Source: Pseudomonas sp. PDNC002
Lineage (GTDB): Bacteria > Pseudomonadota > Gammaproteobacteria > Pseudomonadales > Pseudomonadaceae
Length of the DNA stretch: 64,000 nt
Assembly (NCBI RefSeq): GCF_016919445.1
Contig: NZ_CP070356.1
Location: 1,954,001 to 2,018,000 of the forward strand
Direction of reading: 5' to 3'
Shown in pieces: positions 18,567 to 63,655 of this stretch. Made by a program: the position numbers and the translations under genes. The stretch's first letter is position 1; each line of letters opens with the position of its first letter. The notes below the pieces were generated by a model that was not told where the DNA came from, ran no database searches, and saw only the letters and a list, made by a program, of their open reading frames with translations.

Positions 18567-19382
18567 TCATTCCGGCTTACTGGCGCTCCCTTGGGGAAAC
18601 AGTGAGCGGCTGATGAAGCGTGCTGTCTCGTGCAGGCTGGCACCGATCTGTTCCAGTTTTTCCCGCTCATGCTGCGCGCTGATGCCGATGCCGGAGATGA
18701 CGAAGCGCGGCTGCCGGTCGTGGTCGATGATCGCGCTGGCGACCATGCTGACGCCGCGGTAGAGGTGGTCCTGGTCAATGGCCCAGCCGAGTTCGAGGGC
18801 GCCGATGGCGTCATTGCGAAACTCCTCGAAGCCGGGCGGGCTCTCCCAGCGCACGCGGGTCAGGCGGCGGCGCAGCTCATCGTCCGGCAGGTTGCGCAGG
18901 CCGGCGATGCAGCGCCCGGCGGCACCCACCAGTTCCGGCAGGCGCGAGCCGACGGCGACGTTGACGTGGGCCACGGGTGGCGCGGAGACGGCGATCACGC
19001 GGATGTGCGCGTCGTCGGTCACCTGCCACAGGGCGATGAGGATCTGGTGGCTGGTGCTCAGACGTTCCAGTTCCGGCTGGATCAGGTCGGCGTAGCTGCG
19101 GCCGATGAAGCTCACCGCCAGCTCCGACAGGCCCAGGCCAAGGCGGTAGGTCTTGGTGTCGTTGTCGAACGAGGTCAGCTGCTCGTTGGTCAGGGTGCGC
19201 AGGATATTGAAGGTGGTGCTCGGGCTGATGCCGGTGGCGCGGGCGATGGCGGTCGCGCCCTCGGGGCCCTCGGCATTGGCCAGGTGGCGAAGGATCTGGA
19301 TGGCATTCACGACGGCGCCGACATCCTTGGCGCTGCCGGTGCGTTTGCTGTTGCTTTCTTCGACGGTCTTTTCAGTGGTCAT
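18567..19382 (-). CDS. IclR-family transcriptional regulator
   Basis: A 271-residue regulator. The N-terminal winged helix-turn-helix (about residues 20-85) contains A-T-A-I-A-R-A-T-G-I-S-P-S-T-T-F-N-I-L-R-T-L. The C-terminal IclR effector domain follows and ends in D-R-Q-P-R-F-V-I-S-G-I. It is divergent from the catabolic operon starting at 19524 and is the likely local regulator. The start was placed at 19382 because a TTGCAG/TACATT promoter (19415-19443, minus strand) would leave almost no leader for the alternative ATG at 19403. That alternative adds seven residues. The effector is unknown. Confidence 0.87.
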   Translation of the reverse strand: MTTEKTVEESNSKRTGSAKDVGAVVNAIQILRHLANAEGPEGATAIARATGISPSTTFNILRTLTNEQLTSFDNDTKTYRLGLGLSELAVSFIGRSYADLIQPELERLSTSHQILIALWQVTDDAHIRVIAVSAPPVAHVNVAVGSRLPELVGAAGRCIAGLRNLPDDELRRRLTRVRWESPPGFEEFRNDAIGALELGWAIDQDHLYRGVSMVASAIIDHDRQPRFVISGIGISAQHEREKLEQIGASLHETARFISRSLFPQGSASKPE

Positions 19383-19396
19383 ATTCTGTATTCTGA

Positions 19397-19443
19397 TTGA
19401 CATTCAGTATTGTGAATGTATTCTGACCCTGCGACGCCTGCAA
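19397..19443. promoter_or_regulatory. Divergent promoters with a shared palindromic operator
   Basis: Plus strand: TTGACA (19397-19402), 16 bases, TATTCT (19419-19424). Minus strand: TTGCAG (19438-19443), 17 bases, TACATT (19415-19420). The palindrome CATTCA-GTATTG-TGAATG (19401-19418) fills the spacer of the plus promoter and covers the -10 of the minus one. A bound regulator would block both, as expected for an autoregulated IclR repressor. Confidence 0.65.
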
Positions 19444-19523: not shown

Positions 19524-19910
19524 ATGGTGGATTTCCCCGACCGCAACATGCCAGGGCCGGAGGCGCAGTACCTCGCCTTCCTCGCCCAGGGTCGCTTCAT
19601 GTTGCAGCGCAGCGCCTCCACCGGCCGATACGTGTTCTACCCGCGCACCCAGGTGCCCGGCAGCGGCGAAACGGACCTGGAATGGGTTCCCGCCAGTGGC
19701 CTGGGCACCCTGTATGCCCTGACCGTCAATCGCGCCCGCAGCGGTGACTACAACGTCGCCCTGATCGACCTGGATGAAGGTGTACGCATGATGTCGCGTA
19801 TCGAAGGGCATCTCAGCCTGCCCATCGGCGCCCGCGTCAAGGCGCGCATTGCCCAGCAGGAGAGTGGCGCCGTCGTCGTCTTCGAGCCTCTCGCGGAGGT
19901 GCAAGCATGA
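19524..19910 (+). CDS. DUF35 OB-fold protein without its zinc ribbon cysteines
   Basis: A 128-residue protein of the DUF35 (Zn-ribbon plus OB-fold) family, whose members are partner subunits of thiolase-fold enzymes. The N-terminal part keeps the ribbon-like pattern (F-M-L-Q-R-S-A-S-T-G-R-Y-V-F-Y-P-R) but every metal-binding cysteine is replaced, and the protein contains no cysteine. The OB-fold follows (L-G-T-L-Y-A-L-T-V-N-R to about residue 120). The start at 19524 has AGGAG at the right distance; the in-frame ATG at 19485 has none. It overlaps the thiolase-fold gene by 4 bases (ATGA), which is strong evidence for a two-subunit complex. Confidence 0.85.
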   Translation: MVDFPDRNMPGPEAQYLAFLAQGRFMLQRSASTGRYVFYPRTQVPGSGETDLEWVPASGLGTLYALTVNRARSGDYNVALIDLDEGVRMMSRIEGHLSLPIGARVKARIAQQESGAVVVFEPLAEVQA

Positions 19911-21058
19911 GTCAGGTCCTGCGTGGCAAGACCGCCATCGTCGGCATCGGCAGCGCCGGTATCGGCGAAGCCCACGGCTATAGCGCCATGGAATTGCTCG
20001 GCCAGGCCTCGATGAAAGCCATCGCCGATGCCGGGCTGAAGCTTTCGGACATCGACGCGGTGTTCTCGGCCACCAGCTCCCATGCCTTCCCGACCCTCTC
20101 GGTCTGCGAGTACCTGGGCATCAAACCGAAATTCGTCGACGGCACCAACGTCGGCGGCTCCAGCTTCGAGCTCCATCTTCTGCAGGCAACCCTGGCCCTG
20201 GAGGCCGGCCTGTGTGACGCGGCGCTGATCTGCTATGGCTCCAACCAGCGCACCGCTGGCGGCAAGCTGGTGTCGATGAGCGAGCCGCAGTGGCACGAAA
20301 CGCCCTACCAGCCGCGCCACCCGATCACTGCTTATGCGCTGGCTGCCAGTCGGCATATGCATCAATACGGCACCACCCGCGAGCACCTGGCCGAAGTGGC
20401 CGTCGCCGCGCGGGGCTGGGCCAACCTCAATCCCGAGGCCTTCGCCCGTGGCCCGCTGAGCATCGATGACGTGCTCGCCGCACGGATGGTCAGCGACCCG
20501 CTGAGCAAGGCCGACTGCTGCCTGGTCACCGACGGCGGTGGTGCCTGTGTGATGGTGCGCGCCGAGCGTGCGCGGGACCTGCCCAAGGCGCCGATCTACT
20601 TCCTCGGCGCGGCCGGCGCGCAGTGGCACCGCTCCATCGTTGCCATGCCCGACCTCACCGTCACTGCCGCTTCCGAGAGCGGTCCACGCGCCATGCAGAT
20701 GGCCGGCGTGAAGCACTCGGATATCGACCTGGTGATGGTCTACGACGCCTTCACCATCAATACGATCCTGTTCCTCGAAGACCTCGGCTTCTGCCCGAAG
20801 GGCGAGGGCGGCCGCTTCGTCCAGGGCGGGCGCATCGCCCCCGGCGGTGAGCTGGCGGTGAACACCAACGGCGGTGGGCTGTCCTGTGTGCATCCGGGCA
20901 TGTACGGCATGTTCCTGATCATCGAGGCGGTTACCCAGCTGCGCCGACAGGCCGGTGAGCGCCAGTTGAAGAAGGCCGATATCGCCTTGCTGCACGGCAA
21001 CGGCGGCACGCTGTCCAGCCAGGTCACCGCGCTGCTCGGCACCCAGAACGTGCTCTGA
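19907..21058 (+). CDS. Thiolase-fold protein lacking both thiolase cysteines (possible aldolase)
   Basis: A 383-residue protein of the SCPx/lipid-transfer branch of the thiolase superfamily. The position of the acylated nucleophile reads N-V-G-G-S-S (Val82 in place of Cys). The second catalytic motif CxGGG reads H-G-N-G-G (363-367). The histidine of the GHP motif is kept (His329 in S-C-V-H-P-G). A true thiolase needs both cysteines, so thiolytic activity is unlikely. Ltp2-type retro-aldolases of steroid side-chain degradation share this loss and also pair with a DUF35 subunit, so aldol cleavage of a beta-hydroxyacyl-CoA is a reasonable inference. V-Y-D-A-F-T (278-283) resembles the Y-D-x-F-T region of that group. 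It is translationally coupled to the DUF35 gene. Confidence 0.85.
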   Translation: MSQVLRGKTAIVGIGSAGIGEAHGYSAMELLGQASMKAIADAGLKLSDIDAVFSATSSHAFPTLSVCEYLGIKPKFVDGTNVGGSSFELHLLQATLALEAGLCDAALICYGSNQRTAGGKLVSMSEPQWHETPYQPRHPITAYALAASRHMHQYGTTREHLAEVAVAARGWANLNPEAFARGPLSIDDVLAARMVSDPLSKADCCLVTDGGGACVMVRAERARDLPKAPIYFLGAAGAQWHRSIVAMPDLTVTAASESGPRAMQMAGVKHSDIDLVMVYDAFTINTILFLEDLGFCPKGEGGRFVQGGRIAPGGELAVNTNGGGLSCVHPGMYGMFLIIEAVTQLRRQAGERQLKKADIALLHGNGGTLSSQVTALLGTQNVL

Positions 21059-21170: not shown

Positions 21171-23306
21171 ATGTCAGTGAGTCACTTGCAACACACAGGC
21201 TTCGCCAGTCTCACCCCGCTGATCCAGCCGCGCTCGGTCGCCGTGGTCGGCGCCTCCAGCGACCCGCACCGCATCGGTGGCCGCCCCATCGCCTACATGC
21301 TGCGCAACGGCTTCACCGGCCGCATCCTGCCGGTGAACCCCAATCGCACCGAGATCCAGGGCCTGCCGGCCTATGCCAGTGTCGACGCGCTGCCCGAGGC
21401 GCCGGACGTGGCGATCATCGCGGTGCCGGCACCGCAGGTGCTGGAAACCGTCCAGGCGCTGGGCCGCAAGGGCGCGCGCAGCGCCATCGTGTTCTCCTCG
21501 GGCTTCAGCGAAGTCGGCGAGGAAGGCGTGGCCATGCAGGACGCCATCGTCGAAGCCGCCCGCGCGGCGAACATGCGCCTGCTGGGGCCGAACGCCCTGG
21601 GCGTGTTCAACGCCAACCTGGGCTACTACGCCTTCTTCTCCACCAGCCTGGAGCGCGGCATCCCGCTGGCCGGGCGCGTCGGCATCGCCACCCAATCCGG
21701 CGCCTACGGCGCGCACCTGCTGGGTCTGTCGCGGCAGCGCGGGCTGGGTACACCGATCTGCGTCGCCACCGGCAACGAGGCCGACGTCACCCTGGGCGAT
21801 GCCATCGGCTGGCTGGTGGAATCGCCGGAGGTCGACGTGGTGATGGCCTACGCCGAATCCATCCGCAACGTCGACAGCTTCCTCGCCGCGCTCGAAGCGG
21901 CCCATCGCGCCGGCAAGCCGGTGATCCTGCACAAGGTCGGGCGCAGCGAGCTGGGCGGCCGTGCGGCCATGTCGCACACCGCCTCCCTGGCCGGCGACGA
22001 CAAGGTGCTCGACGCGGTTCTGGCCGACTACGCGGTGGTCCGCGCGCGCACCACCGAAGAGCTGGTGGACATCGCCTACCTCGCCACGCAGCGCATCTAC
22101 CCGGTGAACAACAGCCTAGGAATGATCACCGTCAGCGGTGGCGCCGGGATCATCGTCAGCGACGCCGCCGAGGACGTCGGCCTGCCCATGCCGCCGATGC
22201 CGGAAGCGGCCCAGGCACGCCTGAAGCAGCGCCTGCACTATGCCTCGCCGCTGAACCCGGTGGACTGCACGGCCCAGGCGCTCAACGACCTGAGCCTGGT
22301 GCACGATTTCACCGAGTCCATGGTGGTGGACGGCGGCTATCGCTCGCTGATCGCCTTCTTCACCCAGGCCGGTACTGCTGCCTCCATCGGCCCGCGCCTG
22401 GCCGAGCAGTTCGCGCGGATCAAGGTCGATCACCCGGACCGCCTGTTCGTGGTCTCGGTGATGGGCGAGGGCGAGGAGCTGGCGCCGTACCAGAAGGCCG
22501 GCTTCGCCCTGTTCGAAGACCCGACCCGCGCCGTGCGCGCCATCCAGGCCATGGGCCAGTTGGGCGAAGCATTCGCCCGGCCGCTGCGCAGGATTCCTGT
22601 GCCCGGCGGCGTCGAGCTGCCGCCCAGCACGCCCGGTGAGGCTGAGGCCAAGCAATTGCTGGCGCGCGCCGGCATCGAATCGGCGCCCGAACGTGTGCTG
22701 AAAAGCGCTGCGGAAGCTGCCGCATTCGCCGAACAGATCGGCTTCCCGGTGGTGTTGAAAATCGCCTCGGCGGACATTCTGCATAAGTCGGAAATCGGCG
22801 GCGTGTTGCTCAACGTCGGCAGCGCCCAGGCCGTGCGCGACGGCTACGCATTGCTGCTCGAACGCGCTGCCGAACATGCGCCGAACGCTCGCCTCGACGG
22901 CGTGCTGGTGGCTCGTCAGCTGCAGGGCGGCGTCGAGTGCTTCATGGGCATCCAGCGTGACGCGCAGTTCGGTCCGGTAGCGGTGTTCGGCCTTGGCGGC
23001 ATCTTCGTCGAGGTGCTCAAGGACGTGGTGTTCCGTCGCTGCCCGTTCGGCGTCGATGAGGCCGAGCAGATGATCCGCAGCATCAAGGGCGCGCCGCTGC
23101 TGCTGGGCGCCCGTGGTCGTCCGGTGACCGATATCAAGGCCCTGTCGCGCGTGCTGGCGCAACTCTCGCAGTTCGCTGCGGAGGCCGGCCCGCGCCTGCG
23201 TTCGGTGGACCTCAACCCGGTCTTCGCCATGCCCGAAGGGCAGGGCGCCTGGGCCGCCGACGCGGTGCTGGAAGTGGAGGAGGTGGCCCATGGCGCTGAA
23301 TCCTGA
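21171..23306 (+). CDS. ADP-forming-type acyl-CoA ligase (CoA-binding plus ATP-grasp)
   Basis: A 711-residue single-chain homologue of ADP-forming acetate-CoA ligase. The N-terminal CoA-binding domain (R-S-V-A-V-V-G-A-S, 21-29) is followed by the succinyl-CoA-ligase-like domains, including the conserved S-H-T-A-S-L-A-G stretch with His269, the expected phosphohistidine region. A C-terminal ATP-grasp domain (about 490-705; A-D-I-L-H-K-S-E-I-G-G-V) closes the protein. It probably activates the substrate acid to its CoA ester. The start at 21171 (MSVSHLQHTG) is preceded by AGGTGG. The 112-base gap before it shows no gene. Its end overlaps the MaoC gene by 17 bases. Confidence 0.88.
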   Translation: MSVSHLQHTGFASLTPLIQPRSVAVVGASSDPHRIGGRPIAYMLRNGFTGRILPVNPNRTEIQGLPAYASVDALPEAPDVAIIAVPAPQVLETVQALGRKGARSAIVFSSGFSEVGEEGVAMQDAIVEAARAANMRLLGPNALGVFNANLGYYAFFSTSLERGIPLAGRVGIATQSGAYGAHLLGLSRQRGLGTPICVATGNEADVTLGDAIGWLVESPEVDVVMAYAESIRNVDSFLAALEAAHRAGKPVILHKVGRSELGGRAAMSHTASLAGDDKVLDAVLADYAVVRARTTEELVDIAYLATQRIYPVNNSLGMITVSGGAGIIVSDAAEDVGLPMPPMPEAAQARLKQRLHYASPLNPVDCTAQALNDLSLVHDFTESMVVDGGYRSLIAFFTQAGTAASIGPRLAEQFARIKVDHPDRLFVVSVMGEGEELAPYQKAGFALFEDPTRAVRAIQAMGQLGEAFARPLRRIPVPGGVELPPSTPGEAEAKQLLARAGIESAPERVLKSAAEAAAFAEQIGFPVVLKIASADILHKSEIGGVLLNVGSAQAVRDGYALLLERAAEHAPNARLDGVLVARQLQGGVECFMGIQRDAQFGPVAVFGLGGIFVEVLKDVVFRRCPFGVDEAEQMIRSIKGAPLLLGARGRPVTDIKALSRVLAQLSQFAAEAGPRLRSVDLNPVFAMPEGQGAWAADAVLEVEEVAHGAES

Positions 23307-24171
23307 GCATCTGCTGAACTACCCGATCCCGGAAGTACGCCAGCGCTTCAGCCGCCATGACAGCGCCTTCTATGCGCTGTCGGTCGGGCTCGGCGCGGAC
23401 CCGATGGACGAGCACCAGCTGACCTTCGTCGACGCCAACCGCGATCTCCAGGCGCTGCCCTGCATGGCGGTGGTGCTGGGTCATCCCGGCTTCTGGCTGG
23501 GCAATCCGGACACCGGCGTCGATGCCCTGCGCCTGGTCCACGGCGAGCAGAGCATCGAATGGCTCAAGCCGCTGCCGGTGGAAGGCGAAGTGATCGGCCG
23601 CACCCGCGTCACCGGGCTGGTCGACAAGGGCGCCGGCAAGGGCGCGCTGCTCTATAGCGAGAAGGTCGTCAGCGATGCGCAAAGCGGTGAGGTGCTGGCG
23701 ATTGCCCGCGGCACCACCTTCCTGCGCGGCGATGGCGGTTTCGGCGGCGACAGCCAGTCGCTGAGCCAGCCGCACCGTCTGCCCGAGCAGGCGCCGGACC
23801 TGGTCATCGACCTGCCGACTCGCCCCGAGCAGGCGCTGCACTACCGCCTGAACGGCGACGACAACCCGATCCATGCCAGCCCTGCGGCGGCCGCTCGTGG
23901 TGGCTTCCCGCGGCCGATCCTGCATGGCCTGTGCACCCTCGGCGTGGCCTTCCACGCGCTGCTGCGCGGCTTCGCCGACTACCGCGCGGAGCGTTTCGCC
24001 CACTTGCAGGTGCGCTTCTCCGCACCGGTGTTTCCCGGCGAAACCCTGCGTACCGAAATCTGGAATGACGGCTCCTTCCGCACCCGCGTCGTCGAGCGCG
24101 ACGTGGTGGTGCTGGACAACGGCCGCGTGCGCCTGACCCCGGAGATGGGAGAACACGCCGGGCGGGCATAG
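23290..24171 (+). CDS. MaoC-family (R)-specific enoyl-CoA hydratase, double hot-dog
   Basis: A 293-residue protein with two hot-dog domains, the arrangement of hydratase 2. The catalytic segment in the second domain reads Y-R-L-N-G-D-D-N-P-I-H-A-S-P (about residues 188-201), with the Asp/Asn-His pair of hydratase-2 enzymes, followed by F-P-R-P-I-L-H-G-L. It adds water to a trans-2-enoyl-CoA to give the (R)-3-hydroxyacyl-CoA, which suits the SDR encoded at 29061. It overlaps the ligase gene by 17 bases. Confidence 0.9.
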   Translation: MALNPEHLLNYPIPEVRQRFSRHDSAFYALSVGLGADPMDEHQLTFVDANRDLQALPCMAVVLGHPGFWLGNPDTGVDALRLVHGEQSIEWLKPLPVEGEVIGRTRVTGLVDKGAGKGALLYSEKVVSDAQSGEVLAIARGTTFLRGDGGFGGDSQSLSQPHRLPEQAPDLVIDLPTRPEQALHYRLNGDDNPIHASPAAAARGGFPRPILHGLCTLGVAFHALLRGFADYRAERFAHLQVRFSAPVFPGETLRTEIWNDGSFRTRVVERDVVVLDNGRVRLTPEMGEHAGRA

Positions 24172-24210: not shown

Positions 24211-25581
24211 ATGAACGCACCCGACAGCTTGGCCCAGAGCACCGCGATACCGCGGCGGACCCTGGTGATCGCTTTCCTCTTCTGCTTCCTGGGTCTGCTC
24301 GCCGATGGCGCGGACCTGATGTTCCTCGCCTACAGCCTGAACAGCCTGAAGGCGGAATTCGGTCTCTCCAACTTCGAGGCCGGTTCGCTGGGCAGCGTCA
24401 CCCTGGCCGGCATGGCCATCGGCGGTATCTACGGCGGCTGGGCGTGCGACCGCTTCGGTCGGGTGCGGGTGGTGACCTGGACCATCCTGGTGTTCTCCCT
24501 GGGCACCGCGCTGCTCGGGCTGGCGCACAACTTCTGGGCCTTCGCGCTGATCCGCTTCGTCTCCTCGCTGGGGCTGGGCTCGCTGTTCGTGGCCTGCAAC
24601 ATCCTGATGTCGGAGTTCGTCACCGCGAAGTACCGCACCACCATCCTGGCAACCATGCAGGCCGGCTGGACCGTGGGCTACCTGGTGGCGACCGTCCTCG
24701 CCGGGCTGATCATCCCCGACTACGGCTGGCGCGCGCTGTTCTTCACCGCCATTGGCGCGGCGCTGATCTGCCTGGCGCTGCGGCCCTGGGTGCCGGAGTC
24801 GCCGTCCTGGCTGGCGGCCCGCGCGCAACGGGTGCAGCAGGCCGACAGCGGACGCCGGCAAGCAGTCGCCAGCGGCGGCATGCGCCAACTGCTGGTCGAT
24901 CCGTCCACGCGACGCATGTTCGTGCTGTGGAGCCTGACCTCGTGCTTCCTGCTGTTCGGCTACTACGGCACCAACAACTGGATGCCCTCGTACCTGGAAA
25001 GCGAGCTGGGCATGAACTTCAAGTCCATGACCGGCTACATGGTCGGCACCTACACCGCGATGATCCTCGGCAAGGTGCTCGCCGGGATCGCCTCGGACCG
25101 CTTCGGTCGCCGCGCCACCTTCGCCGCTGGCGCCATCGGCACCGCGATCTTCATGCCGGTGATCGTGTTCTGGCACACCCCGGACAACATCGTCTGGATC
25201 CTCGCGCTGTTCGGCTTCATCTACGGCGTACCGGTGGGCGTGCTGGCCACCTACATGACCGAGAGCTTCTCCACCCAGGTGCGCGGCGCCGCCGTCGGCA
25301 CGTCCTACAACCTTGGCCGCATCGGCGCGGCGGTGGCTCCGGCGGCCATCGGCCTGCTGGCTTCGCACGTGTCCATCGGTGCGGGCTTCCTGGTGATGGG
25401 CATCACCTATGTGATCACCGGCCTGATCCCGGCGCTGATGATCCCCAACCGCCTGTATGACCCAAACCGCGAAGCGCGCACAGCGCAGCCCAGCGCACCC
25501 GCACCCGCACCCGCGCATGCGCCGGCGCACAGCGCAGCCCGCCCACTGGGCCAACCCGTTACGGAGGAAAGCCTGCGATGA
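24211..25581 (+). CDS. MFS transporter, aromatic-acid:H+ symporter type
   Basis: A 456-residue inner-membrane carrier with twelve predicted membrane segments. The two MFS loop signatures are C-D-R-F-G-R-V-R (after helix 2) and S-D-R-F-G-R-R-A (after helix 8). An acidic residue in the first helix (L-A-D-G-A-D-L) resembles the D-G-x-D motif of the AAHS family (PcaK, BenK). It is therefore a likely proton-coupled importer of the organic acid used by this operon. The C-terminal 40 residues are an unusual Ala/Pro/His-rich tail (P-A-P-A-P-A-H-A-P-A-H). Its end overlaps the thioesterase gene by 4 bases. Confidence 0.88.
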   Translation: MNAPDSLAQSTAIPRRTLVIAFLFCFLGLLADGADLMFLAYSLNSLKAEFGLSNFEAGSLGSVTLAGMAIGGIYGGWACDRFGRVRVVTWTILVFSLGTALLGLAHNFWAFALIRFVSSLGLGSLFVACNILMSEFVTAKYRTTILATMQAGWTVGYLVATVLAGLIIPDYGWRALFFTAIGAALICLALRPWVPESPSWLAARAQRVQQADSGRRQAVASGGMRQLLVDPSTRRMFVLWSLTSCFLLFGYYGTNNWMPSYLESELGMNFKSMTGYMVGTYTAMILGKVLAGIASDRFGRRATFAAGAIGTAIFMPVIVFWHTPDNIVWILALFGFIYGVPVGVLATYMTESFSTQVRGAAVGTSYNLGRIGAAVAPAAIGLLASHVSIGAGFLVMGITYVITGLIPALMIPNRLYDPNREARTAQPSAPAPAPAHAPAHSAARPLGQPVTEESLR

Positions 25582-26024
25582 CCGATCTCTCCCGCGCCGC
25601 CAATGCACCGGGACCGGACATGTTCCCCCGCGATCGATACACCTTCCAGGAGTTCCTAGGCCTGGAGCGCTGGGTCGATGGCGAGGTGGTGCGGGTACGC
25701 CTGCGCCACCGCCCGGAGCTGATGAACTACATCGACAGCTTCCACGGCGGCGTGCTGATGAGCGTGCTCGATGCCGCCATGGCCGGCGCGATCCGCGCGC
25801 AGATGCCGGGTTGCTCGATGGTCACCATCGACATGGCCACCCACTTCATGGGCAGCACCCGCGGCGAGATCAACGCCGTCGGCCGGGTGCTCAAGCGCAC
25901 TCGCACGCTGTGCTTCTGCGCGGCGGAAATCTTCGATGAGGCCGGCGAGCTGATCGCCAGCGCCACCGGCAGTTTCAAGTACCGGCCCGCGGCGGCCGGA
26001 GCTGTTCAACCGACACGGGAATGA
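25578..26024 (+). CDS. PaaI-family hot-dog thioesterase
   Basis: A 148-residue single hot-dog protein. The PaaI/4HBT motif H-G-G-V-L-M-S-V-L-D (about residues 56-65) contains the helix-start HGG and the catalytic acidic residue. It probably hydrolyses stalled or misactivated acyl-CoAs and so recycles CoA for the pathway. It overlaps the MFS gene (ATGA) and ends 4 bases before the first acyl-CoA dehydrogenase. Confidence 0.88.
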   Translation: MTDLSRAANAPGPDMFPRDRYTFQEFLGLERWVDGEVVRVRLRHRPELMNYIDSFHGGVLMSVLDAAMAGAIRAQMPGCSMVTIDMATHFMGSTRGEINAVGRVLKRTRTLCFCAAEIFDEAGELIASATGSFKYRPAAAGAVQPTRE

Positions 26025-26028
26025 TGAA

Positions 26029-27087
26029 ATGACCGACCACACCGCGATGGCCGAGGAGCGCGAAGAGCGCCTGCGGCTGATCCGTGACAGCGCCGCCTCC
26101 CTGGTCCCGCGCGGCGGCGACCTGGGACGGGTGCGCCGCCTGCGCTTCCAGTCGACGGGCGTGGACCGCGACGCCTGGGGCGAAGTCTGCGCCATGGGCT
26201 GGCCGGGCCTGCGCCTGGCGGAAGAACTGGGCGGCAGCGGACTGGGCATGGCCGAGTACGCGGCGCTGCTGGAAGAGCTTGGACGTGGCCTGCTGCCTGA
26301 GCCGCTGATCGAGGCAAGTCTGGTCGCTCCGTTGCTGCCTGCGGACGAGCGCGATGCACTGTTGGCTGGCGAACGACTGATCTTGCCCGCCGGTATCGGC
26401 TATGAAGCGAGTGCCGCGTTGCCGGTGCTGCGCGATGGCCAGCTGCGCGGCGAGATCGCCCACGTGGCGCTCGGTGCGGCCGCCGATGCCTGGCTGGTCG
26501 CCTGCGATAGTGGTTTCGCTCTCGTGCAACGTAATGCCGAAGGGCTCAGCCTGTATCAGGAACCCACCCAGGACGGCGGCCACCTGGCGCGCCTGCGCTT
26601 CGACGGCACGCCGGCGCAACGCGTCGAGTCCACGCCCGCAGCCCTCGATGAAGCGGCGCTGGCCTGCTCGGCCTATCTGGTCGGGCTGATGGATGCGGCC
26701 TTCGCGCAGACCCGCGACTACCTCGGCGTGCGCCGGCAGTTTGGCCGTGAGATCGGCAGCTTCCAGTCGCTGCAGCACCGCATGGTCGACCTCAAGCTGC
26801 AGATCGAACTGGCCCGCGCCATCGTCGGCGAAGCGGCCGCCGCGCTGGACGACGGTGCGCCGACCGCCCAGGTACAGCGCCTGGTGTCCTCCGCCAAGGT
26901 TCGCGCGGCTGAGGCCGCGATGCTGGTCACCCGCCAGGCGATCCAGCTGCACGGCGGCATCGGCTACACCGACGAAGCCGACATCGGCCTGTTCCTGCGC
27001 CGCGCCATGGTGCTGCTCAACAGCCAGGGCTCGCTGGCCTTCCACCGGGCGCGCTACATCGCCCTGCTGCATGCGGAGGTGGCGTGA
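26029..27087 (+). CDS. Acyl-CoA dehydrogenase, short and probably non-catalytic subunit
   Basis: A 352-residue flavoprotein-family member, shorter than usual. The C-terminal FAD-binding half is clear (R-R-Q-F-G-R-E-I-G-S-F-Q-S-L-Q-H and Q-L-H-G-G-I-G-Y-T). The middle beta domain is short and divergent. The usual catalytic YEG site reads L-N-S-Q-G-S, and no glutamate sits at the alternative isovaleryl-CoA-dehydrogenase position. It may therefore pair with the 381-residue dehydrogenase at 27867, as in alpha2beta2 steroid acyl-CoA dehydrogenases in which one subunit lacks the base. Its stop overlaps the start of the hydratase gene (TGATG). Confidence 0.85.
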   Translation: MTDHTAMAEEREERLRLIRDSAASLVPRGGDLGRVRRLRFQSTGVDRDAWGEVCAMGWPGLRLAEELGGSGLGMAEYAALLEELGRGLLPEPLIEASLVAPLLPADERDALLAGERLILPAGIGYEASAALPVLRDGQLRGEIAHVALGAAADAWLVACDSGFALVQRNAEGLSLYQEPTQDGGHLARLRFDGTPAQRVESTPAALDEAALACSAYLVGLMDAAFAQTRDYLGVRRQFGREIGSFQSLQHRMVDLKLQIELARAIVGEAAAALDDGAPTAQVQRLVSSAKVRAAEAAMLVTRQAIQLHGGIGYTDEADIGLFLRRAMVLLNSQGSLAFHRARYIALLHAEVA

Positions 27088-27851
27088 TGAGCGAGATGCT
27101 GTTGCAGGAAACCCACGGCTCGGTGCGCCTGCTGCGCTTCAACAATCCGGCGCGGCGCAACGCGCTGTCTCCCGCACTGCGTGCCGAGCTGCTCGACGCG
27201 CTGCGTGAAGCGGACGCCGATCCCGTCGTGCGCAGCGTGGTGCTCACCGGTTCGGCGGAAGTCTTCAGTGCCGGTGGCGATTTGAGCGACATGCACGTCA
27301 CCGACCTCAACGCCGGCCGCGTGCGCATGCAGAAGAACGCCGATCTGGTCCGCCAGATGTTGCGCATGGGCAAGCCCATCATCGCCGCCATCGAAGGCTG
27401 GGCGGTGGGCGCCGGGCTGTCCGTGGCGCTGGCCTGCGACAGCCTGGTTTGCGGCGGCACGGCGCGCTTTGCCGCCGGATTCGGCAAGGTTGGCTTGATC
27501 GCCGATCTCGGTCAGCTGCACACCTTGCCGGCGCGCATCGGCAACGGTCGGGCGCGGCAAGTGCTGATGTTCGGCCAGGTGATCGAGGCCGAGGAAGCGC
27601 TGCGTATCGGTCTGGTGGACCAGCTCTGCGCGCCGGGTGCCGCGCTGGATGCCGCGTTGGCATTGGCCGCGAAGGTTGAACAACAGGCGCCGCTCGCGCT
27701 GTCGCTGACCAAGGCGCTGCTGGCCGATGGCCTGGAACTGCTGCTCGAACGCGAAGGCGATTTCCAGAGCCAGCTGTTCCTCAGTGCCGACCACGCCGAA
27801 GGCAAAGCGGCCTTCCTCGACAAGCGTTCGCCCTCTTTCAAAGGCCACTGA
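27087..27851 (+). CDS. Enoyl-CoA hydratase/isomerase (crotonase) family
   Basis: A 254-residue crotonase-fold protein. The first oxyanion-hole segment reads F-S-A-G-G-D-L-S-D-M and the second V-G-A-G-L-S-V-A-L-A-C-D. The usual catalytic glutamates of enoyl-CoA hydratase are not clearly placed (A-A-G-F-G-K-V-G-L-I-A-D), so it could be an isomerase or hydrolase-type crotonase. ATG at 27087 overlaps the preceding stop by one base; GTG at 27084 is possible. A second hydratase in an operon that already has a MaoC enzyme suggests a distinct step. Confidence 0.88.
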   Translation: MSEMLLQETHGSVRLLRFNNPARRNALSPALRAELLDALREADADPVVRSVVLTGSAEVFSAGGDLSDMHVTDLNAGRVRMQKNADLVRQMLRMGKPIIAAIEGWAVGAGLSVALACDSLVCGGTARFAAGFGKVGLIADLGQLHTLPARIGNGRARQVLMFGQVIEAEEALRIGLVDQLCAPGAALDAALALAAKVEQQAPLALSLTKALLADGLELLLEREGDFQSQLFLSADHAEGKAAFLDKRSPSFKGH

Positions 27852-27866
27852 GCCGAGGACATAGAC

Positions 27867-29012
27867 ATGACCGATTACAACGCCCTCGACGATGGCGAAT
27901 TCCGTCGGCTGGTGCGCGAGTGGGTCGCCGCCAACTACCCGCAACGCATCCGCAACCCGGCCCACCGCCTGGGCCGTGACGACACCTGGGAGTGGTACCA
28001 GGCGCTGTCGAAACAGGGCTGGCTGTGCCCCGGCTGGCCGGTGCAACACGGCGGCATGGGCCTCTCCGCCGGCAAGCAGCTGATCATGATCGAGGAGATG
28101 GAAAACTACGGCTGTGCGCGCCTGCCCGATAGCGGCATCACCATGCTCGGCCCGCTGCTGATCCGCTACGGCACCGACGCCCAGCGCGAGCGTTTCCTGC
28201 CGCGCATCCTCAGTGGCGAGGACATCTGGTGCCAGGGCTACAGCGAGCCCAATGCCGGCTCCGACCTCGCCAGCCTGCGCACCGAGGCGGTGCTGCGCGA
28301 CGGCGAATGGGTGATCAACGGCCAGAAGACCTGGACCACCATGGGCACCGAGGCCAACTGGATCTTCGTGCTGGCGCGCACCGAACGCAGCGCCAAGGCG
28401 CAGCAGGGCATCAGCTTCCTGCTGGTGCCGATGGACAGCCCCGGCGTCGAGGTGCGGCCGATCCTCAACCTCGAACTGCAGGGCGAATTCTGCGAGGTGT
28501 TCTTCAACGACGTGCGCGTGCCGGAGGAAAACCTCGTCGGTGCGGTCAACCACGGCTGGGGCATGGCCAAGGCACTGCTGGGCTTCGAGCGCATCTTCCT
28601 CGGTTCGCCCAAGCAGGCCACCTTCGCCCTCGAACGCCTGGTGCGCCTGGCCCGCCATCAGGGCCTGTGGGACGACCCGGTGTTCGCCCAGCGCTTCGCC
28701 GCGCTGAGCATGGACCTGGACTGCCACAAGGCGCTCTACGAGCGCTTCGCCGAACGCCTGCGGCGCGGCGAGGAACTGGGCCCGGACGTTTCCCTGCTGA
28801 AGATCCACCAGTCCGAGCTGTACCAGCGCATCAGCGAGCTGGGCCTGGAGATCGCCGGCCTCGACTCGGCGCTGTTGCATCCGTACGCCGACGATCCCGA
28901 ACTGCACCCGGCGGGCATTTTCATCCAGTCGCGGCCGACCACCATCTACGGCGGCACCAACGAGATCCAGCGCAACATCCTCGCCAAGGCCGTGCTCGGC
29001 CTGCCGAGCTGA
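27867..29012 (+). CDS. Acyl-CoA dehydrogenase, catalytic subunit candidate
   Basis: A 381-residue acyl-CoA dehydrogenase. Features in order are the helical N-domain, Y-S-E-P-N-A-G-S-D-L-A-S-L (FAD/substrate loop), W-T-T-M-G-T-E-A, a C-terminal helical domain and the ending T-I-Y-G-G-T-N-E-I-Q-R-N-I. The MCAD-type glutamate is Gly here (Y-G-G). A glutamate in G-F-E-R-I-F-L-G lines up with the isovaleryl-CoA-dehydrogenase base. It introduces the alpha,beta double bond in the CoA-activated substrate. It is separated from the short dehydrogenase only by the crotonase gene. Confidence 0.92.
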   Translation: MTDYNALDDGEFRRLVREWVAANYPQRIRNPAHRLGRDDTWEWYQALSKQGWLCPGWPVQHGGMGLSAGKQLIMIEEMENYGCARLPDSGITMLGPLLIRYGTDAQRERFLPRILSGEDIWCQGYSEPNAGSDLASLRTEAVLRDGEWVINGQKTWTTMGTEANWIFVLARTERSAKAQQGISFLLVPMDSPGVEVRPILNLELQGEFCEVFFNDVRVPEENLVGAVNHGWGMAKALLGFERIFLGSPKQATFALERLVRLARHQGLWDDPVFAQRFAALSMDLDCHKALYERFAERLRRGEELGPDVSLLKIHQSELYQRISELGLEIAGLDSALLHPYADDPELHPAGIFIQSRPTTIYGGTNEIQRNILAKAVLGLPS

Positions 29013-29060: not shown

Positions 29061-29978
29061 ATGACCCAACGACTCAACGAAGGCAAGGTAGCGATCGTCA
29101 CTGGCGCCGGTGGCGGCATCGGCCGCGAGATCGCCCTGGCCCTGGCCGACAGCGGCGCGCGGGTGCTGATCAACGATATCGGCGTGTCCCTGCAGGGCGA
29201 GGGCGGTTCGGCCTCGCCGGCCGAGGAAACCCTCGGGCTGATCCGCCAGCGCGGCGGCGACGGCGCCATCAACACCGACAGCGTGTCGGACTGGGACAGC
29301 GCGCGACGCATTGTCGCCAGCGCCATCGACGCCTTCGGCCGCGTCGACATCGTGGTGAACAACGCCGGCATCCTGCGCGACACCATCTTCCACAAGATGA
29401 GCGCCGAGGACTGGCTGTCGGTGATCAACGTGCACCTCAACGGCAGCTTCTTCGTCAGCCGTGCCGCTGCCGAGCACTTCCGCGCGCAGAACAGCGGCGC
29501 CTTCGTGCACATGACCAGCACCTCGGGGCTGATCGGCAACTTCGGCCAGGCCAACTACTCGGCGGCCAAGCTCGGCATCGTTGCGCTGAGCAAGTCCATC
29601 GCCCTCGACATGCAGCGCTACAACGTGCGCTCCAACTGCATCGCGCCCTTCGCCTGGAGCCGCATGACCGACTCCATTCCGGCCGAGACGCCGGAGCAGA
29701 AAGCGCGGGTGGAAAACCTGCAGCGCATGACCCCGGACAAGAACGCGCCGCTGGCCGTGTACCTCGCCTCCGATGCCGCCAGTGCGGTCAACGGCCAGGT
29801 GTTCGCCGCGCGCAACCACGAGATCTTCCTGATGAGCCAGAGCCGCCCGCTGCGCAGCGTGCACAGCGACAACGGCTGGACCCCGCAGAGCATCGCCGAG
29901 CACGGCATGCCGGCGCTGCGCGGCAGCTTCATGGACCTGGCGCGCAGCCCGGACGTGTTCTCCTGGGACCCGATCTGA
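29061..29978 (+). CDS. SDR-family (3R)-hydroxyacyl-CoA dehydrogenase-like protein
   Basis: A 305-residue short-chain dehydrogenase related to the dehydrogenase unit of peroxisomal multifunctional enzyme 2. Features are the nucleotide motif T-G-A-G-G-G-I-G (14-21), N-N-A-G (100-103), and catalytic Ser153/155, Tyr166 and Lys170 (Y-S-A-A-K). The long N-terminal loop N-D-I-G-V-S-L-Q-G-E-G-G and the C-terminal extension (about residues 240-305) are family traits. It would oxidise the MaoC product to the 3-oxoacyl-CoA, or act on another hydroxyl of the substrate. A GGAACGAGC ribosome-binding site precedes ATG. Confidence 0.9.
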   Translation: MTQRLNEGKVAIVTGAGGGIGREIALALADSGARVLINDIGVSLQGEGGSASPAEETLGLIRQRGGDGAINTDSVSDWDSARRIVASAIDAFGRVDIVVNNAGILRDTIFHKMSAEDWLSVINVHLNGSFFVSRAAAEHFRAQNSGAFVHMTSTSGLIGNFGQANYSAAKLGIVALSKSIALDMQRYNVRSNCIAPFAWSRMTDSIPAETPEQKARVENLQRMTPDKNAPLAVYLASDAASAVNGQVFAARNHEIFLMSQSRPLRSVHSDNGWTPQSIAEHGMPALRGSFMDLARSPDVFSWDPI

Positions 29979-30974
<996 letters not shown>

Positions 30975-61335: not shown

Positions 61336-62154
61336 ATGTGGCTGCGCAGTTACTCCACCTCGGTCTACCTGTTCCTCTACGCGCCCATCGCGCTGATCAT
61401 GCTCTTCGCCTTCAACGCCGGGCGCAGCGGGCTGAGCTTCCAGTGCTGCTCGGTGCAGTGGTTCGGCCGCGCCTTCGGCAACCCGTTCATCATGGAAGCC
61501 CTGGGCAACAGCGCGCTGATCGCCTTCTGCTCGGCGCTGATCGCCACGCTGTTCGGCACCCTCGCAGTGTTCGGCCTGCAGCGGGTCGGCAAGCGCGTGC
61601 GCCTGCTGTTCGACGCGCTGACCTACTGCGCGATCATCGTGCCGGGTATCGTCATCGGCATCGCCACGCTGATCGCCTTCATCACCCTGTTCGACGTGGT
61701 GAACCCGCTGCTGGCGCTGCTGGATATCGGCCTGCCGAAACTCAACATGGGCTTCGGCACCGTCGTGGCGGCGCATTCGCTGTTCACCATGGCGCTGGTG
61801 ATGGTGATCGTCCGCACCCGCGTCGAGGCGATGGACAAGTCGCTGCTGGAAGCCTCCGCCGACCTCTACGCGCCGCCGCTGGACACCTTCTGGCGCGTGA
61901 CCCTGCCGCAGATCGCCCCGGCGATCCTGGCCGGCTTCCTGCTGGCGTTCACCTTCAGCTTCGACGACTTCATCATCGCCTTCTTCGTCGCCGGCTCGGA
62001 AACCACGCTGCCGATCTACATCTTCTCGTCGATCCGTCGCGGTATCACGCCCGAGATCAACGCCATCTCCACGGTGATCATCTGCGCCTCGCTGGCGCTG
62101 CTGTTCACCTCCCGCTACCTGCAGAACCGCCGCACCGGCGTTCAGGCCGCCTGA
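61336..62154 (+). CDS. ABC transporter permease, PotC-like
   Basis: A 272-residue permease, partner of the preceding one. The EAA loop reads E-A-S-A-D-L-Y-A-P-P-L-D-T-F-W-R-V-T-L-P and the F-S-F-D-D-F-I-I-A-F-F-V motif of PotC-type proteins follows. The start at 61336 comes one base after the upstream stop, implying coupled translation. Confidence 0.93.
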   Translation: MWLRSYSTSVYLFLYAPIALIMLFAFNAGRSGLSFQCCSVQWFGRAFGNPFIMEALGNSALIAFCSALIATLFGTLAVFGLQRVGKRVRLLFDALTYCAIIVPGIVIGIATLIAFITLFDVVNPLLALLDIGLPKLNMGFGTVVAAHSLFTMALVMVIVRTRVEAMDKSLLEASADLYAPPLDTFWRVTLPQIAPAILAGFLLAFTFSFDDFIIAFFVAGSETTLPIYIFSSIRRGITPEINAISTVIICASLALLFTSRYLQNRRTGVQAA

Positions 62155-62179
62155 GGGCCGACTTCAAGGAGACTCGAGG

Positions 62180-63655
62180 ATGCGCGACCAGCTCTACATC
62201 AACGGGCAGTGGGTCAGGCCGGACCTGGGCGGCCGTTTCACCAGCTTCGACCCGGCCACCGGCCAGCCGCTGCGCGAAGTACCGGCGGCCACCGAGGAAG
62301 ACGTCGACCATGCCGTGCGCGCGGCGCGTACCGCGTTCAATCGTGGCTGGGGGCAGAGCCGCGGCGCCGAGCGCGCGGAGTGGCTGGAGGCGCTGGCCGG
62401 GGAGCTGGAACGCAACCAGGATTCGCTGGCCGAACTGGAAGTGCGCGACAACGGCAAGCCGCTGCCCGAGGCGCAATGGGACGTGGCCGACGCCATCGGC
62501 TGTTTCCGCTATTACGCCGATCTGGCGCGGGAGCTGGACGAGCGCCAGGACCAGACTCTGCCACTGCCCGACGAACGCTTCCGCTGCCGTATCCGCCAGG
62601 AGCCGGTGGGCGTGGCGGGGCAGATCATCCCCTGGAACTACCCGCTGCTGATGGCGGCGTGGAAGGTCGCGCCGGCCCTGGCAGCGGGCGCCACCTGCGT
62701 GCTCAAGCCATCCGAGCTGACGCCGCTGAGCGCCCTGGAACTGGCCGCCGCGGCGGACGCGATCGGGCTGCCGGCCGGCGTGCTGAACGTGCTGCCGGGG
62801 CTGGGCGCGGAGGCTGGTGGGCCGCTGAGCCAGCATCCCGGCGTGGACAAGCTGGCCTTCACCGGCAGCGTGCCAACCGGCTCGCGGATCATGTCGGCGG
62901 CAGCCCAGGACATCAAGAACGTCAGCCTGGAGCTGGGCGGCAAGTCGGCCTTCATCGTCTTCGACGACAGCGATATCGAGGCGGCGGTGGAATGGATTCT
63001 CTTCGGCATCTTCTGGAACCAGGGTCAGGTGTGCAGCGCCACCTCGCGCCTGCTGGTGCAGGAGGGCATCGCCCCGCGCCTGATCGAGCGTCTGGTGGAA
63101 GCGACCCGCGCCATCACCATCGGCAACGGCATGGAACCGGGCGTGCTGCTCGGCCCGCTGGTCAGCCAGGGGCAGCACGAGAAGGTGCTCGGTTTCGTCG
63201 ACAAGGGCCGCGCTAGCGGCGCCCGCCTGCTCACCGGCGGCAAGCGTCCGGCGGGGCTGGAGCAGGGCTGGTTCATGGAGCCGGCGATCTTCGACGAGCC
63301 GGCCGAGGACGCGCTGATCTGGCGCGAGGAAATCTTCGGCCCGGTGCTCTGCGTGAAGCGCTTCAAGACCGAGGCCGAGGCCCTGCGCCTGGCCAACGAC
63401 AGCCGCTTCGGCCTGGCCGGCGCGGTGATGTCGGGCGACCCGCAGCGTGCCGCGCGGGTAGCGGATGGGCTGCGGGCGGGGATCGTCTGGGTGAACTGCT
63501 CGCAACCCACCTTCACCCAGGCGCCCTGGGGCGGCATGAAGCACAGCGGCATCGGCCGCGAGCTGGGCGTGTGGGGGCTGGAGAACTACCTGGAGGTGAA
63601 GCAGGTGACGGAGTACGTCTCGGATCAGCCGTGGGGGTGGTACCTGAAGGGCTGA
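62180..63655 (+). CDS. NAD(P)+-dependent aldehyde dehydrogenase, betaine/aminoaldehyde type
   Basis: A 491-residue aldehyde dehydrogenase. The catalytic residues are Asn153 (P-W-N-Y), Glu251 (L-E-L-G-G-K-S) and Cys285 (G-Q-V-C-S-A). A close relation to betaine-aldehyde and aminobutyraldehyde dehydrogenases is suggested by F-W-N-Q-G-Q-V-C-S-A-T-S-R. In this operon it probably oxidises the aminoaldehyde formed from the imported polyamine, but no amine oxidase or transaminase is in the window. It starts 25 bases after the permease gene. Confidence 0.93.
   Translation: MRDQLYINGQWVRPDLGGRFTSFDPATGQPLREVPAATEEDVDHAVRAARTAFNRGWGQSRGAERAEWLEALAGELERNQDSLAELEVRDNGKPLPEAQWDVADAIGCFRYYADLARELDERQDQTLPLPDERFRCRIRQEPVGVAGQIIPWNYPLLMAAWKVAPALAAGATCVLKPSELTPLSALELAAAADAIGLPAGVLNVLPGLGAEAGGPLSQHPGVDKLAFTGSVPTGSRIMSAAAQDIKNVSLELGGKSAFIVFDDSDIEAAVEWILFGIFWNQGQVCSATSRLLVQEGIAPRLIERLVEATRAITIGNGMEPGVLLGPLVSQGQHEKVLGFVDKGRASGARLLTGGKRPAGLEQGWFMEPAIFDEPAEDALIWREEIFGPVLCVKRFKTEAEALRLANDSRFGLAGAVMSGDPQRAARVADGLRAGIVWVNCSQPTFTQAPWGGMKHSGIGRELGVWGLENYLEVKQVTEYVSDQPWGWYLKG

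Follow-up and report, generated by a model that had tools for sequence, protein, structure and literature searches.

A DUF35-coupled thiolase-fold protein of Pseudomonas sp. PDNC002 is a probable retro-aldol lyase with a proposed tyrosine–histidine active site

Thiolase-fold aldolases that lack the nucleophilic cysteine and are accompanied by a DUF35 protein are known from Ltp2–ChsH2 of steroid degradation and from the bile acid aldolase Sal–Shy. In both TcLtp2 and CtSal the base is a tyrosine; the acid is Tyr344 in TcLtp2 and, as proposed, Cys304 in CtSal, where Gly89 contacts the β-hydroxyl group in a substrate model (PMC12329534). For the ibuprofen pathway, one study speaks of a 'retro-aldolase' in its introduction and of an 'ipfDE-encoded thiolase' in its discussion (PMC9195938), and a review assigns the removal of the acyl-coenzyme A (CoA) group to IpfD and IpfE (PMC6063337). 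Here we analyze a gene pair at 19524..21058 of a 64,000-nucleotide stretch of Pseudomonas sp. PDNC002 (contig NZ_CP070356.1, positions 1,954,001 to 2,018,000; the window), which encodes a DUF35 protein and a thiolase-fold protein. A first-pass annotation, made from the sequence alone, had described two translationally coupled open reading frames (ORFs) and a probable Ltp2-like aldolase. Both ORFs are present: AAAGGAG precedes the DUF35 ATG at 19524, and the DUF35 stop codon overlaps the ATG of the thiolase-fold protein in an ATGA at 19907-19910. Tree placement and the tyrosine and glycine shared with the aldolases lead us to the same prediction, namely that the pair is probably a DUF35-assisted thiolase-fold retro-aldol lyase of β-hydroxyacyl-CoAs.

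Active site and placement of the thiolase-fold protein

Both HMMER and MAFFT alignments place the nucleophilic cysteine of the cysteine-bearing relatives 7yvy, 6esq, 7pxp and 6hsj at Gly84, two residues past Val82. The cysteine is thus absent, as had been noted earlier, but its site is Gly84 and not Val82. Classical thiolases carry the oxyanion-hole motif NEAF where others have HDxF; in the window protein the histidine of the latter is replaced by Tyr279 (YDAF). Consequently, of the nucleophilic cysteine, the HDxF histidine and the HPxG histidine of a cysteine-dependent thiolase only the last is found, as His329, which faces Tyr344 of TcLtp2 and Gln352 of CtSal. The retained HPG histidine and the HGNGG sequence at the second cysteine motif (residues 363-367) had been read correctly at first pass. 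Other cysteines remain in the translation (C67, C103, C109, C204, C205, C214, C296 and C327).

Relatives were drawn from the best 80 of 276 loci and are therefore biased to close kin. Among these close members (the window and 80 loci, 81 in total) Gly84, YDAF and HPG are invariant, a cysteine at positions 82-84 occurs in none, alanine at 83 occurs in one, and the HGNGG histidine is present in 79; Gly84, Tyr279 and His329 are all invariant across 35 aligned members. All loci fetched up to that analysis hold 112 distinct thiolase-fold ORFs, of which 106 combine Gly84 with Tyr279, five combine cysteine with histidine and one combines glycine with glutamine. Many of the 106 are near copies, and with the close family excluded the counts are 20 Tyr type, 5 His type and 1 neither, so that the His type is thinly sampled among the locus ORFs. 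The seven His-type rows of the tree set, which include solved thiolases, agree that cysteine goes with histidine: the replacements of cysteine by Gly84 and of histidine by Tyr279 go together. Within the 106 Tyr-type ORFs the motif and the residue at 329 are YDAF/His in 91, YDSF/His in 6, YDHF/Tyr in 3, YENF/Tyr in 3, YDCF/His in 2 and YDAF/Tyr in 1, the last combination fitting IpfD.

The best NCBI family of the protein is NF004811/PRK06158 (692.5 bits, cut-off 421), and the next one stays below its own cut-off (322.7 bits). Sequence matches in the PDB are led by 4u4e (2.5e-113), CtSal 9myr (1.2e-53) and TcLtp2 6ok1 (2.7e-45), with thiolases following from 4.7e-34. Trees were built from 12 of the 80 loci together with the window protein and others; the near-duplicates L099 and L115 were dropped, L103, which is the window itself, was skipped, and the tree is drawn without PhlC-type acyltransferases, which score far lower in the sequence search. 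The unrooted 45-row tree separates 37 Tyr-type from 7 His-type rows with a support of 100/99, and the split persists at 100/100 after removal of the motif columns. Ltp2, Sal, the ibuprofen protein IpfD and the window protein lie on the Tyr side and thiolases on the other. The phylogenetic check suggested by the first-pass annotation therefore came out in favor of its proposal. Within the Tyr side, the window family shares its part of the tree with 4u4e and PRK08142, at a distance from Ltp2 and Sal. By this evidence the window protein falls outside the ordinary thiolases and also outside Ltp2 and Sal proper. The subfamily occurs in alpha-, beta- and gammaproteobacteria, where databases name its members 'thiolase' or 'acetyl-CoA acetyltransferase'.

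A separate kind of catalytic loss was seen elsewhere in the same genome (L084:6731-7966, 4.31 Mb): this thiolase-fold protein, encoded among dehydrogenase- and thiolase-like ORFs, has neither the cysteine nor the tyrosine (SDGAGG, QDAT) and falls among the His type in the 45-row tree.

The DUF35 partner and the gene cluster

The model of the DUF35 protein (predicted local distance difference test, pLDDT, 91.8) has its best fold matches in 6ok1_B and 9myr_B, and the OB-fold of the family is present. Its zinc ligands are gone, in line with the earlier description: the protein contains no cysteine, and S30, T33, V44 and S47 (codons from 19611, 19620, 19653 and 19662) occupy the four positions. 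A DUF35 match stands beside the enzyme gene in the window and in 79 of the 80 loci, the sole locus without one being L030:9400-10001. The claim that Ltp2-type aldolases need DUF35 thus holds as far as a steady partner is concerned; for the activity of Ltp2, DUF35 reportedly does not seem to matter, while Sal with DUF35 alone loses activity upon dilution (PMC11321319).

All four zinc cysteines are present in 25 of the 80 partners (window and 79 loci), none in 54, and one partner is truncated. Partners without them form one side of a single branch (100/99) in a tree of 56 enzymes, and the active site is the same across near-family members of either kind. Since other DUF35 proteins have zinc ribbons and intermediates are lacking, the absence would represent a loss rather than a gain, and would have come about in a single step. 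We discarded the idea that a lost zinc site points to aldolase chemistry: both kinds of partner surround the same active site, and the same genome offers a counterexample at 4.50 Mb, where a DUF35 protein without zinc cysteines (L083:5267-5752) adjoins a thiolase that keeps its cysteine and HDAF (L083:4128-5327). With IpfE, this DUF35 protein and the window partner all devoid of them, missing zinc cysteines occur in several settings and are not by themselves a mark of an aldolase.

The pair opens a plus-strand catabolic cluster that reaches to about 31 kb (Table 1); a gene similar to the divergent regulator stands at the same place in Pseudomonas loci.

Table 1. Coordinates of the gene pair, of its active-site residues and of the neighboring genes in the window.
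Feature	Position	Strand	Basis
IclR-type regulator, divergent	18567..19403	-	assigned by eye; NCBIfam search at 1e-25 without a match
DUF35 (OB-fold) partner, 128 amino acids	19524..19910	+	PF01796 49.6 bits, cut-off 27.1
Thiolase-fold protein, 383 amino acids, predicted retro-aldol lyase, NF004811/PRK06158 subfamily	19907..21058	+	NF004811 profile, PDB 4u4e/9myr/6ok1, tree
Gly84 codon, place of the nucleophilic cysteine	20156..20158	+	alignments; faces CtSal Gly89
Y279-D-A-F motif	20741..20752	+	Tyr faces TcLtp2 Tyr294 (catalytic base) and CtSal Tyr302
Cys327, candidate alternative proton donor or relocated nucleophile	20885..20887	+	81/81 close members
His329 of HPG, at the place of TcLtp2 Tyr344, proposed proton donor	20891..20893	+	alignments
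HGNGG, residues 363-367, in place of second cysteine motif	20993..21007	+	read from sequence
ADP-forming acyl-CoA ligase, 711 amino acids	21171..23306	+	ATP-grasp_5, Succ_CoA_lig; closest solved 8wzu, 4-hydroxybutyrate-CoA ligase
Double-hotdog MaoC/hydratase-2, GDDNPIH	23290..24171	+	MFE-2_hydrat-2_N, MaoC; 7mku/1s9c
MFS transporter, closest to the aromatic acid/H+ symport family	24211..25581	+	TIGR00895 331.6 bits, below cut-off 418.55
Hotdog thioesterase	25578..26024	+	TIGR00369 57.7 bits, cut-off 36.6
Acyl-CoA dehydrogenase, short subunit, IpdE2/PimD-like	26029..27087	+	no middle-domain match; two NCBIfam matches below cut-off
Crotonase-fold enoyl-CoA hydratase/isomerase	27084..27851	+	ECH_1
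Acyl-CoA dehydrogenase, full subunit, PimC-like	27867..29012	+	TIGR03204 277 bits, below cut-off 624
Short-chain dehydrogenase/reductase (SDR), MFE-2-type, NNAG and YSAAK motifs	29061..29978	+	2et6 (3R)-hydroxyacyl-CoA dehydrogenase 334 bits
Flavoprotein ('nitronate monooxygenase type' in our naming)	29997..30974	+	FabK model TIGR03151 249 bits, below cut-off 453
Porin-like ORF	~31.2-32.5 kb		named by eye; downstream of cluster
MmgE/PrpD-like ORF	32.5-33.9 kb		named by eye; downstream of porin-like ORF

The 80 loci contain MaoC in 50 cases, MaoC with both dehydrogenase subunits in 41, the SDR in 56 and the CoA ligase in 44; these counts are lower bounds, as some stretches are short, and their thresholds were chosen after the scores had been seen. 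The trio of two-subunit acyl-CoA dehydrogenase, MaoC and DUF35-aldolase has the same layout as the actinobacterial steroid side-chain module, whose hydratase–aldolase part has been described (PMC11321319). A single query detected aldehyde dehydrogenase-like ORFs in 6 of 84 loci (L013, L014, L017, L026, L031 and L085) and found none in the 99% identical loci L003-L005; the only such ORF of the window lies at 62078-63652, about 28 kb past the cluster. A second version of the pair, 86-89% identical, occurs in a different neighborhood in Pseudomonas (L013, L014, L016 and L017); these loci show neither a CoA ligase nor a MaoC like those of the window, and L013 has PimC/PimD-like dehydrogenases and a FabK-type flavoprotein near the pair. 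In Cupriavidus, a thiamine diphosphate enzyme of the benzoylformate decarboxylase/acetolactate synthase type directly precedes the pair (L061:7816-11158, with similar ORFs in L057, L063 and L064), a context that yields no conclusion on the substrate.

Proposed reaction, alternatives and possible substrates

In the proposed pathway, the ADP-forming CoA ligase would activate an acid, the two-subunit acyl-CoA dehydrogenase would dehydrogenate the acyl-CoA, and the MaoC hydratase is predicted to hydrate the product to a β-hydroxyacyl-CoA. The pair would then cut the Cα–Cβ bond, releasing a ketone or aldehyde together with acetyl- or propionyl-CoA: Tyr279 would take the proton of the β-hydroxyl group, which would lie above the backbone of Gly84, at the cysteine site of thiolases, and His329 would donate a proton to the enolate, without formation of an acyl-enzyme. 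The reaction, the functions of His329 and the zinc-less partner, and the nature of the product are our inferences. A ketone is probably likelier than an aldehyde, if only because the cluster holds no aldehyde dehydrogenase gene.

Several observations weigh against a retro-aldol reaction. The structural comparison advised at first pass, made with models of the single chains, ranks 4u4e and the solved aldolases first, but with a small margin over thiolases, and the active-site loops 82-85 and 322-328 have pLDDT values below 50. His329 also serves true thiolases, so that its retention is unspecific, and the literature searched yielded no characterized thiolase-fold aldolase with a Tyr–His pair. 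The main counter-argument comes from the MFE-2-type SDR, the commonest neighbor after DUF35: together with MaoC it would yield a β-ketoacyl-CoA, which is a thiolase substrate. MaoC and SDR would then constitute a split MFE-2, and the last step would be a β-ketoacyl-CoA cleavage by direct attack of CoA, by retro-Claisen hydrolysis or with another residue, for example Cys327, as relocated nucleophile. The nearest solved relatives of both proteins, hydratase-2 for MaoC and (3R)-hydroxyacyl-CoA dehydrogenases for the SDR, fit this course, as does the invariance of Cys327, only two residues from His329, and PRK08142-type rows have a cysteine one place before, at 326. However, position 327 is tyrosine in 4u4e, serine or asparagine in PRK08142 rows, glutamate in Ltp2 and glycine in IpfD; we therefore rejected Cys327 as relocated nucleophile beyond its standing within this alternative, as it is invariant in the near family only. 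Moreover, the nucleophile site is devoid of cysteine, the tyrosine replaces a histidine that all seven His-type tree rows and all five His-type ORFs keep, and in 24 of the 80 loci no such SDR was seen within the fetched stretch, some of these being short. We consider β-keto cleavage unlikely on this balance; the target of the SDR may rather be the product or a different hydroxyl group.

That the protein is no lyase at all, but decarboxylates CoA thioesters, serves as a non-catalytic scaffold or works as a synthase in the forward aldol direction, appears very improbable to us. A precedent for decarboxylation is given by the Tyr-type TbSLP, which decarboxylates malonyl-CoA, albeit with a very low kcat (PMC12329534). 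Against a non-lyase role stand the invariant Gly84, Tyr279 and His329 and the catabolic character of the neighbors, which comprise CoA ligase, acyl-CoA dehydrogenases, hydratase and transporter.

Beyond the retro-aldol lyase reading of the pair itself, we tentatively entertain a wider one, which we hold to be possible but doubtful: the NF004811 clade might be a third catalytic form of the aldolases, Tyr–His next to Tyr–Tyr in Ltp2 and Tyr–Cys in Sal, that ends proteobacterial β-oxidation of β-branched or ring-carrying acids by release of a ketone. For such acids thiolysis would be blocked because the β-alcohol is tertiary. One branch of the clade would have lost the zinc site of the partner with the active site untouched, and in one lineage a cyclohexanone monooxygenase would take up the ketone. 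On a conjugative plasmid of Actibacterium a match to this monooxygenase (770 bits) lies about 10.5 kb upstream of the DUF35-aldolase cluster, in a gene set (L085:823-8070) with a hydrolase, an alcohol dehydrogenase and a semialdehyde dehydrogenase; similar genes are near the pair in L026, L035 and L037 (matched by contig and position), and 20 of 50 genomes examined have a match at 1e-60. This proximity hints at a ketone product. (1-Hydroxycyclohexyl)acetyl-CoA lyase (EC 4.1.3.35) exists as an enzyme for which, to our knowledge, no gene is known, and a member of the monooxygenase-linked lineage would be a candidate. Conversely, all linked pairs come from a single lineage, whose enzymes are 95.6-100% identical, a further operon separates the pair from the monooxygenase gene, and the window genome has no close cyclohexanone monooxygenase homologue, its best match reaching 144.6 bits and 38% identity over part of the protein. 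Cyclohexylacetate as substrate in the window strain is unsupported. A paper on Cupriavidus gilardii calls the cyclohexylacetate pathway largely unknown in the Cupriavidus strain reported to degrade this compound, and the word 'thiolase' is absent from the excerpted text (PMC4547698).

We also discarded a steroid pathway, as no steroid ring genes were recognized in the cluster. The earlier statement that other steroid genes are missing is thus true of the cluster and unproved for the genome: about 1.5 Mb from the pair (L121:7787-13120, 3.48 Mb), KstD-like (617 bits, cut-off 789) and HsaA-like (385 bits, cut-off 450) proteins adjoin ORFs that resemble DUF1302/DUF1329 by eye, a candidate gene cluster for the breakdown of a compound that is steroid- or terpenoid-like.

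If the Tyr/Gly signature denotes an aldolase, a proteobacterial subfamily is misnamed as thiolase. β-Oxidation of branched or ring-bearing acids would then have a common non-thiolytic exit, and residues 84 and 279 would help to sort the thiolase superfamily. The natural Tyr–Tyr, Tyr–Cys and Tyr–His forms would allow a direct test of which residue gives the enolate its proton.

Comparison with described DUF35-linked aldolases

Searches of open-licence PMC articles for the window clade or for non-steroid DUF35 aldolases returned steroid, ibuprofen and unrelated papers and none on the clade, and no article there contains both '4U4E' and 'thiolase'. The first-pass annotation had regarded a non-steroid retro-aldol end step as new, which is contradicted by the ibuprofen pathway, to which such a step is ascribed; we find that IpfD likewise has YDAF and no nucleophilic cysteine, next to a DUF35 partner devoid of zinc cysteines. 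On pIBU218 we identified the two proteins by gene order and size as a 395-residue 'hypothetical' protein and an OB-fold protein encoded between dioxygenase and AMP-ligase genes. IpfD has the nucleophile loop DSEGSTA, and its best PDB match is 4u4e; IpfE lacks the zinc cysteine pairs. A direct sister relationship of IpfD and the window family was dismissed: the free tree puts IpfD, on a long branch, by Ltp2 (91/91), although the constraint joining it to the window family is not rejected (approximately unbiased test, p 0.2). A further pair on the ibuprofen plasmid is Ltp2-like (L096:939-2503; YDHF, zinc cysteines present in its DUF35) and adjoins both a gene for a TonB receptor plug domain and an IS6100 copy.

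Taken in the broad sense that includes Ltp2, Sal and IpfD, the window pair is a putative DUF35-linked aldolase by its glycine at the cysteine column, the tyrosine of YDxF/Y, its tree placement and its partner. With Ltp2–ChsH2 (TcLtp2, 6ok1) it shares these features, the thiolase fold, and MaoC in the module, as well as the two-subunit acyl-CoA dehydrogenase that the Ltp2 module also has. At 31% identity in the fold alignment, however, it has YDAF and His329 where Ltp2 has YDHF and Tyr344, its DUF35 is a separate protein without zinc cysteines, and its cluster has a CoA ligase, an SDR and no recognizable steroid ring genes. Sal–Shy (CtSal, 9myr) has the tyrosine base, the glycine and the DUF35 partner in common with the window pair, but uses Cys304 of YDCY, where the window protein has Ala281, has Gln352 at the place of His329, and its DUF35 binds zinc by Cys3His1. 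4u4e, a 'thiolase' of Sphaerobacter thermophilus, differs by YDSF and by Tyr at 327. IpfD–IpfE resembles the window pair in YDAF, in the missing nucleophilic cysteine, in the partner without zinc cysteines and in a non-steroid pathway; it departs from it in a tyrosine at the place of His329, in Glu-Gly instead of Gly-Gly and in its substrate, a diol made by a dioxygenase. As far as the sequences tell, fold, DUF35 partner and reaction type would thus be known, and the new element would be the combination of a Tyr–His pair with a partner lacking zinc cysteines in a pathway not yet assigned.
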